Positions 13,737 through 63,940 of a stretch of 64,000 bases of DNA are shown here, piece by piece. Numbering within the stretch: position 1 is the first letter of the stretch; each line of letters starts with the position of its first letter. Made by a program: the position numbers and the translations under genes. The stretch is from an uncultured Bacteroidota bacterium (GTDB lineage: Bacteria > Bacteroidota > Bacteroidia > Chitinophagales > Chitinophagaceae). The stretch covers positions 1-64,000 of the forward strand of contig CAIMDZ010000012.1 in the NCBI GenBank assembly GCA_903839875.1, written 5' to 3'. The notes below the pieces were generated by a model, which was not told the DNA's origin, made no database searches, and worked only from the letters and a program-made list of their open reading frames with translations.

Positions 13737-14337
13737 GCTTTAAGTACAAAGTGATGTATAGTACGGAATTGATCTTGCGTATTGATGCTCGCTAATGCCA
13801 TTCGGTTTGGTATATTAGATGGGTTTGCTGCCGCATAAGGGAGGAAGGATTTCTGTCGGGCTTCGTGGGTTACTTCAGGAGATTTCTCCACTACATTCAT
13901 TTCATTCATTCTGTTGCGAAATGATGGCTTCGATTGGGCTTGTGTGTTACGCGGGCCTTGATGGGGTGGGAGTGCATGGGTTGCCGGTCAGACCTTCGTT
14001 CACTTATGGATTTAACCCACATTGCAGCTCATTAGAATAAAAACATGTATAAGATTCCGCGAAATCAATTAAATCAGCGGTTCAGACCTAATCACTTCCA
14101 CTTTCCTCACACTTCATAATATCTAAACCATTGCTCATAAAACAATTATCATCAAAAAAACTTTTTATCATAGCCCCAAAACTGCACTATCATAGATTTT
14201 ATATTTGGTAATTTAAAATTTGTGCCTTACATTTGCAAACCCCACGGCCAAAAAAGCCTATTGCATAAGGATGGCATTGAGGATTCATTCTTTTGTGAAG
14301 TTCCGGCATAAGCTCCCAATTTTACGTTATTTATTGT

Positions 14338-62518: not shown

Positions 62519-62554
62519 AGTAGTAGAGACGGCATGCATGCCGTCTCTACTACT
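62519..62554. repeat. 36-bp perfect palindrome AGTAGTAGAGACGGCATGCATGCCGTCTCTACTACT
   Basis: Exact palindrome; related imperfect AGAGACGCAAAATcctgTGTCTCT about 26 bp downstream. Confidence 0.95.
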
Positions 62555-63076: not shown

Positions 63077-63289
63077 ATCAAGGCCGTCATTTCGAACGAA
63101 GTGGAGTGAAACGGAACGAAGAGAGAAATCTCCTGAGAGTTAAGGTGAAGCCAAATAGAGTTTCAGTGGTCACTTGCCCCATCAGAGCCGTCATTTCGAA
63201 CGGAGTACCGATTTTTCATCGGTACGCAGAGAGAAATCTCCTGAGAGTTAGCGGTGCGGCCAAATAGAATTCCACCGGCCACTTGCGTC
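63077..63289 (+). repeat. Two tandem copies (about 104-109 bp) of the CCGTCATTTCGAACG...GAGAAATCTCCTGAGAGTTA repeat
   Basis: Units 63077-63180 and 63181-63289. Confidence 0.88.
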
Positions 63290-63318
63290 AGCAATAAAAA
63301 ACGCTTAATTTTCGCTGA

Positions 63319-63612
63319 ATGCAGAAGGCCGGCTTCGTATATATAGTTACCAATACACATCACACAGTGGTGTACGTAGGTGTTACATCGCAGTTGTTGA
63401 ACCGTATCTACAAGCATAAAATTCATTTTTACAAAAAGAGTTTTTCTGATCGGTACAACATTGAGTATCTCGTTTATTATGAGCGTTTCGAAAGAATAGT
63501 GGATGCAATAGCAAGGGAAAAGCAAATAATGAAATGGCGGCGGGAAAAGAAGGATGCGTTGATCAATTCCATGAATCCGGAGTGGCGGGATCTGTGGGAT
63601 GAGATGCATTGA
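63319..63612 (+). CDS. GIY-YIG nuclease family protein
   Basis: GFVYIVTNTHHTVVYVGVTSQLLNRIYKHK...YNIEYLVYYERFERIVDAIAREKQIMKWRREKKDALINSMNPEWRDLW. Confidence 0.95.
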   Translation: MQKAGFVYIVTNTHHTVVYVGVTSQLLNRIYKHKIHFYKKSFSDRYNIEYLVYYERFERIVDAIAREKQIMKWRREKKDALINSMNPEWRDLWDEMH

Positions 63613-63630
63613 CGCAGGTTCCCTGATCGG

Positions 63631-63940
63631 CATCACCGCTGAGCCTCGGGAGATTTACTTCGTTACTTATGTCTTTTTCATTTGCCTCAATGAGATTGTT
63701 CTCTCTGTGCCGCGAAGAAAAAACGCGGCTCCGTTCGAAATGACGGCCTTGATGGGGCAGGGCAGTGATTGACTTCACCGCTAACTCTCAGGAGATTTCT
63801 CTCTTCGCCGCGAAGAAAAATCGCTGCTCCGTTCGAAATGACGGTCATGATGGGGCAGGACCGTGATTGACTCCACCGCTAACTCTCGGGAGATTTCTCT
63901 CTGCGCCGCGAAGAAAAATCGCTGCTCCGTTCGAAATCGG
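63631..63940 (-). repeat. Three tandem copies of the same repeat family in inverse orientation
   Basis: CGCTAACTCTC(A/G)GGAGATTTCTCTC...GCCGCGAAGAAAAA.CG..GCTCCGTTCGAAATGACGG repeated. Confidence 0.88.

Follow-up and report, generated by a model that had tools for sequence, protein, structure and literature searches.

The window analysed here, a stretch of DNA 64,000 nucleotides in length, contains a GIY-YIG nuclease gene (63319..63612, + strand) that encodes a protein of 97 residues from an ATG start codon. Five copies of one hairpin repeat surround the gene, two in forward orientation on its left and three inverted on its right. The left copies are unit 1 (63084..63136, +), which has the form GTC|ATTTC...GAAAT|CTCC, and unit 2 (63188..63244, +), which contains an inner hairpin and has a DNA folding z-score of -3.4. 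On the right, the innermost copy, unit 3 (63644..63746, -), is a longer variant with extra internal sequence that is also present at two other loci (L013 and L015), followed by unit 4 (63788..63844, -) and the outermost unit 5 (63886..63940, -), the GTCATT tag of which is degraded or lost. Units 2 and 4 give rise to a large inverted repeat around the gene (63175..63857), with 89-nt arms (63175-63263 and 63769-63857) that are 85% complementary. The exact 15-nt core CCGTCATTTCGAACG occurs four times in the window, at 63084(+), 63188(+), 63732-63746(-) and 63830-63844(-), against 0.06 matches expected even with two mismatches allowed, and the tag CCGTC is found at four of the five copies. The core matches and the arms confirm the sequence-only reading, which had described two direct copies on the left, three opposite copies on the right and a gene enclosed in a large inverted repeat. 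The diverged solo copy that it had noticed near 13.9 kb is also real, located at 13874..13928 on the minus strand with no GIY-YIG gene nearby.

Pattern searches of the host genome (226 contigs, 5.3 Mb) with a 14-nt core and one mismatch allowed revealed the repeat at 10 further sites, none of which has a GIY-YIG gene beside it. A search of the window region against Rfam gave no match. In addition, a perfect 18-bp inverted repeat with zero spacer (AGTAGTAGAGACGGCATG/CATGCCGTCTCTACTACT) is present at 62519-62554, downstream of an acyl-CoA dehydrogenase gene.

The repeats share several features with the CGTC-REPs, namely an unpaired (C)GTC tag, a stem starting with AT, an intergenic location, multiple copies and pairs in opposite orientation. 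The 2013 survey by Di Nocera, De Gregorio and Rocco distinguished GTAG-REPs, which have RAYT transposases, from CGTC-REPs, which include Neisseria dRS3 and Rickettsia elements and "apparently lack a dedicated transposase"; it found no gene for a transposase or other enzyme beside CGTC-REPs and left the question open (PMC3733652). In the superfamily the unpaired end tag is CGTC, TGTC or CCTC. The window copies possess such a tag (CCGTC at four of five) and a complementary stem starting with AT (ATTTC...GAAAT), and are dispersed, multi-copy and intergenic. Compared to the canonical elements, which have a stem of 8-9 bp, a loop of 4-5 nt and a short unpaired tail that is mostly CCA, they have a 5-bp terminal stem, a long inner segment of ~30-40 nt and the tail CTCC. 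We therefore call the window copies CGTC-REP-like rather than CGTC-REPs, since the stem, loop and tail lengths differ. The Proteobacterial copies beside the same nuclease, on the other hand, fit the stem and loop description of the survey.

The nuclease matches PF01541 in a profile search, scoring 42.3 bits where the cut-off is 22.6, and retains the catalytic residues Y8, Y19, G21, R29, E67 and N86, which together assign it to the GIY-YIG superfamily. Across the family, the Y, Y-x-G, E and N residues are invariant and the R is near-invariant. The structure predicted by AlphaFold2 has a pLDDT of 94.5 and most resembles UPF0213, followed at weaker scores by Slx1 and the N-terminal nuclease domain of UvrC. 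The small GIY-YIG proteins of the UPF0213/YhbQ type (PDB 1zg2 and 1ywl) are the nearest solved proteins in both sequence and fold. Nevertheless, the nuclease represents a distinct subfamily with a conserved C-terminal motif, K..R.KK..LIN..NP.W.DL, and the UPF0213-like genes of the same genomes adjoin tRNA genes rather than CGTC-REPs. No specific family for the window nuclease was found in NCBIfam, and no relative in a phage collection. Between close relatives, synonymous change is saturated whereas nonsynonymous differences amount to only 10-20%, indicating that the nuclease is under purifying selection. From the likeness of the predicted model to Slx1, it is plausible that the enzyme may recognize DNA in a branched or hairpin form.

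Relatives of the window protein are present in 41 of 61 genomes of relatives and at 80 loci of named genomes. Together with 18 loci from plasmid and chromid records, these 80 form a set of 98 loci that spans Bacteroidota, Pseudomonadota, Cyanobacteriota and metagenome-assembled genomes filed as Armatimonadetes and Oscillospiraceae. The motif GTCATTKCGA proved too narrow for the search and was replaced by a stem-agnostic pattern, which begins with GTC and the AT-initial arm of a 5-bp stem, continues through a loop of 3-60 nt to the complementary arm and ends in C. With this pattern, GTC-AT hairpins were found within 500 bp of the gene at 84 of the 98 loci, compared to at most 19 (median 6) for the 63 other trinucleotide tags and at most 12 for stems starting otherwise than with AT. 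Near the gene they occur at 2.79 per kb, compared to 0.11 per kb beyond 500 bp. Among 25 distinct proteins without the strict unit, a relaxed copy is recognizable beside 16, bringing the total to 130 of 139; no recognizable REP was found at the divergent relatives L134, L142, L146, L147 and L148. The median gaps from gene to REP at the two gene ends are 70 and 43 nt. Moreover, inverted repeats bracket the gene at 32 of 72 testable loci but in only 3 of 465 control windows of identical shape drawn from other parts of those loci, and direct repeats do so at 30 of the 72 and in 13 of the 465, respectively.

This linkage does not extend to other nucleases. Of 20 long GIY-YIG genes in the same genomes, UvrC-type or other, none has a GTC-AT unit within 500 bp, and units occur at 3 of 19 other small GIY-YIG genes, two of the three being tRNA T-arms. 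The host genome has four Y1/RAYT-type loci; the exact core is absent from all of them, and the sole match with one mismatch is an isolated GTCATTTTGA. Across genomes, GIY-YIG paralogs are very strongly and specifically associated with the repeat, the relation named beforehand as the test of the idea. In Alpha-, Beta- and Gammaproteobacteria, including Rhizobiaceae, Azospirillum, Aeromonas, Photobacterium and Neisseria, the gene is flanked by canonical REPs of the rhizobial and Neisseria types. The Proteobacterial stems are longer and perfect, such as GTCATCCTCGGGCTTGACCCGAGGATC next to the Sinorhizobium and Shinella genes, and the dRS3-type sequence GTCATTCCCGCGCAGGCGGGAATC adjoins it in Neisseria, Aeromonas and Photobacterium.

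Some of the loci have neighbors of their own interest. On plasmid p1 of Planktothrix agardhii (L133:3989-4588), the nuclease gene has a type IIL restriction enzyme gene on one side and the DISARM gene drmA on the other, and 11 REP-like units lie in the vicinity. In many Chryseobacterium species (L063, L070, L072, L080, L085, L088, L091, L093, L095 and L097), the cassette follows a gene ending in ...NHYKSFEKQ, where it was apparently retained vertically; judged by eye, this gene appears to encode a barnase-type ribonuclease, and in several cases a barstar-like gene follows the cassette.

The repeat has a paired stem that varies with the lineage of the enzyme. When position four of the stem and the base opposite it were left free, the two were complementary in 205 of 213 units, with 104 G-C, 51 C-G, 46 T-A and 4 A-T pairs and 8 mismatches. 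As the free position covaries and all four Watson-Crick pairs are used, the paired stem GTC|ATTNC...GN'AAT|C is supported. Single-strand DNA folding gave z-scores below -3 for only two of the five window copies and was unexceptional for the other three, so that the structure of the window repeat rests on the covariation. In 61 of 75 cases, the stem 5-mers to the left and right of the gene are identical, against an expected fraction of 0.20. Mapped onto the nuclease phylogeny (139 sequences), the stem type requires 28 changes compared to a mean of 50.6 when shuffled, and none of 200 shuffles was as low, a signal to which near-copies contribute and in which many forks are unresolved. The match is plainest among paralogs of a single genome. 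In one genome (G034), a paralog with 58% identity to the window protein, on contig C80, adjoins ATTTC-type repeats, whereas another with 48% identity, on contig C88, adjoins ATTGC-type repeats. Another genome (G030) has five cassettes with GTC(A/T)TTGCGAGGAACGAAGCAACC repeats and a further paralog with GTCATGTCGA...GACATC, and at its loci L154 and L156 each paralog has its own stem. Tandem REP-gene cassettes also exist.

Gene and repeat are also distributed together. Among 296 Bacteroidota genomes, at least three repeats are present in 60 of the 147 with the nuclease and in 11 of the 149 without it (odds ratio 8.65, p = 5e-12), and within-family permutation reached the observed count in 3 of 20000 draws. 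At least five repeats are present in 46 and 7 genomes, respectively, and the mean repeat number is about ten times higher in the nuclease-bearing genomes; these counts cover only some stem types and include the copies flanking the gene. The seven REP-rich genomes without the nuclease run counter to the association, although past loss could explain them.

Comparison of syntenic sites showed that the element is present at some and absent from others. The window gene order is an acyl-CoA dehydrogenase, a transglycosylase-associated protein and then a DUF58-like gene (named by eye). G032 keeps this order, yet its last intergenic region is ~173 bp long, compared to ~1.5 kb in the window, and lacks both gene and repeat; the element is likewise absent beside the same gene pair in G028, G015 and G025. 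In Azospirillum lipoferum 4B, the gene and two REP pairs are located between sufB and sufC, whereas three relatives that are 95-98% identical there have no element. Sites without the element, which the sequence-only reading had proposed to compare, thus exist at both positions. In the gltA-lpxB interval of one Sinorhizobium meliloti strain, a REP, a truncated GIY-YIG gene and a REP are followed by a REP, an intact GIY-YIG gene and a REP, and in strain K101 the same interval holds a compact REP palindrome; the comparison suggests how REP pairs could be derived by internal deletion. The junctions are blurred in Azospirillum, Sinorhizobium and the window, where neither a clean insertion junction nor a target duplication was found, so that they yield no rule for the target site. 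When two Sinorhizobium genomes were compared over 100 kb in search of a solo REP with clean insertion ends, the differences were mainly other repeats in complex indels. Given its patchy distribution, its multiple copies and its absence from syntenic sites, the cassette appears to be a selfish mobile unit, and the earlier description of the system as domesticated finds no support.

Among known systems, the likeness to REP/RAYT drawn in the sequence-only reading fits well: in both, one small nuclease gene lies between inverted hairpin repeats, further copies of which are dispersed, and the repeat type matches the enzyme lineage. They differ in that GTAG-REPs are served by a Y1 HUH transposase, whereas here the tag is GTC followed by AT and the bracketed gene encodes a PF01541 protein of unrelated fold, which lacks the HUH motif and for which no covalent strand transfer is known. 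The terminal inverted repeats are also reminiscent of an insertion sequence, but the cassette holds only the GIY-YIG gene and no strand-transfer transposase or recombinase. Free-standing GIY-YIG homing endonucleases, an established class, are likewise selfish single genes that spread with presence/absence polymorphism. Here, however, the enzyme would target a dispersed repeat instead of a single allelic site, and the nuclease is without an intron or DNA-binding extension.

Taken together, we consider it likely that this family of ~95-residue GIY-YIG proteins, encoded by one gene with no helper, serves the CGTC-REP superfamily and its long-loop Bacteroidota relatives as their dedicated nuclease. 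The small enzyme is thus probably the missing partner of the CGTC-REPs, for which no mobilizing enzyme was known in 2013. We infer that it would recognize, cleave and mobilize REPs, the mobile unit being REP - gene - REP, with an unpaired 5' GTC tag and a stem that starts with AT and is otherwise variable yet complementary. The enzyme might recognize its cognate REP type by tag and stem, be it a cruciform, hairpin or duplex, and nick or cut there. The cut REP would most likely be repaired from another REP locus; by this repair, or by replication across REPs, gene and repeats would be copied in a homing-like manner, and REP pairs and solo REPs would be non-autonomous or internally deleted derivatives. 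GIY-YIG enzymes hydrolyze DNA, and none is known to join strands. Spread would occasionally reach new sites, for which capture through host replication or repair would therefore be needed, and for the same reason the arrival of a REP at a REP-free site is a weak point of the proposal. The blurred junctions, the seven REP-rich genomes without the nuclease, the weak single-strand folding of most window hairpins and the divergent relatives with no recognizable REP also count against it.

The strongest rival is a pure parasite of REPs, in which a selfish GIY-YIG gene cuts REPs and is copied into them as in free-standing homing, while the REPs arise and move otherwise. This explanation, which we regard as possible though clearly the less likely one, agrees with the frequent location of the gene inside REP clusters such as the Neisseria arrays, with the abundance of solo REPs without a gene, with the seven REP-rich genomes that lack the nuclease and with the established homing endonucleases of the same superfamily. 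A pure parasite would not necessarily cause the roughly tenfold excess of repeats in nuclease-bearing genomes, and the match of stem type to nuclease lineage would be a natural outcome of an enzyme that shapes the repeats as well. Alternatively, a RAYT or other transposase might move the repeats and the GIY-YIG protein might only repair or remove REP cruciforms, in keeping with its resemblance to the nuclease domains of Slx1 and UvrC, which act on branched or damaged DNA. We find this improbable, since the four Y1-type loci in the host genome are all free of the repeat, a protein that acts only in repair would not need to be linked to it, and the 2013 survey saw no transposase beside CGTC-REPs (PMC3733652).

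Slightly less probable still is a regulatory or RNA role, in which the REPs serve as terminators, attenuators or mRNA processing sites and are perhaps cut as RNA for autoregulation; the short distances of REPs from both gene ends and their ability to fold back would suit it, but dispersed far copies, genome-wide co-occurrence and tandem REP-gene cassettes would be left unexplained. That gene and repeats merely collect in the same permissive intergenic regions is very unlikely: both are indeed intergenic and patchy, but only this GIY-YIG subfamily is linked (0/20 and 3/19 in the controls), and a single tag of 64, lineage-matched stems and inverted bracketing contradict it.

Returning to the dedicated nuclease, a broader form of the proposal has in our judgment about an even chance of being correct: REP - GIY-YIG - REP would be a minimal class of mobile element, unrecognized before, in which a hydrolytic nuclease that is selective for its cognate hairpin spreads CGTC-REPs through several phyla, and orphan repeats such as Neisseria dRS3 would be its non-autonomous offspring. 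A GIY-YIG partner would also mean that the strategy of combining REPs with a nuclease arose with a second, unrelated fold, for which no joining of DNA is known and which would therefore need a spreading mechanism unlike that of RAYT. Intergenic DNA is shaped in many bacteria by CGTC-REPs, the dRS3 arrays in Neisseria being the best known, and with a single-gene partner of 95 residues that is linked, stem-matched and co-distributed, the question of their enzyme left open in 2013 becomes directly testable biochemistry. A search of open-access literature, with subscription journals and preprints outside its scope, found no link between GIY-YIG genes and CGTC-type repeats.

A second small GIY-YIG subfamily, of the UPF0213/YhbQ-like type, shows a different association. 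In Bacteroidota genomes its members lie directly beside tRNA genes of many isotypes at ~28 of 40 loci (L001, part of L206-L233 and L255-L274, as well as contigs C133 and C132 of the host genome G000), whereas no tRNA lies within ~2.6 kb of any of 20 nuclease loci of the CGTC-REP type. Direct repeats of 16-76 nt flank 14 of 22 UPF0213/YhbQ-like genes tested, and several of them are duplicated tRNA segments. This subfamily looks like a separate GIY-YIG element that targets tRNA genes. At two of its loci (L001:1380-1470 and L002:1395-1490), tRNA-like copies beside the gene hold short perfect palindromes (CCTGCCTACCGGCAGGCAGG and TCCCGATAGCTATCGGGA) inserted in the tRNA sequence, and an intact tRNA-Leu at L001:1842-1926 represents the uninterrupted form.
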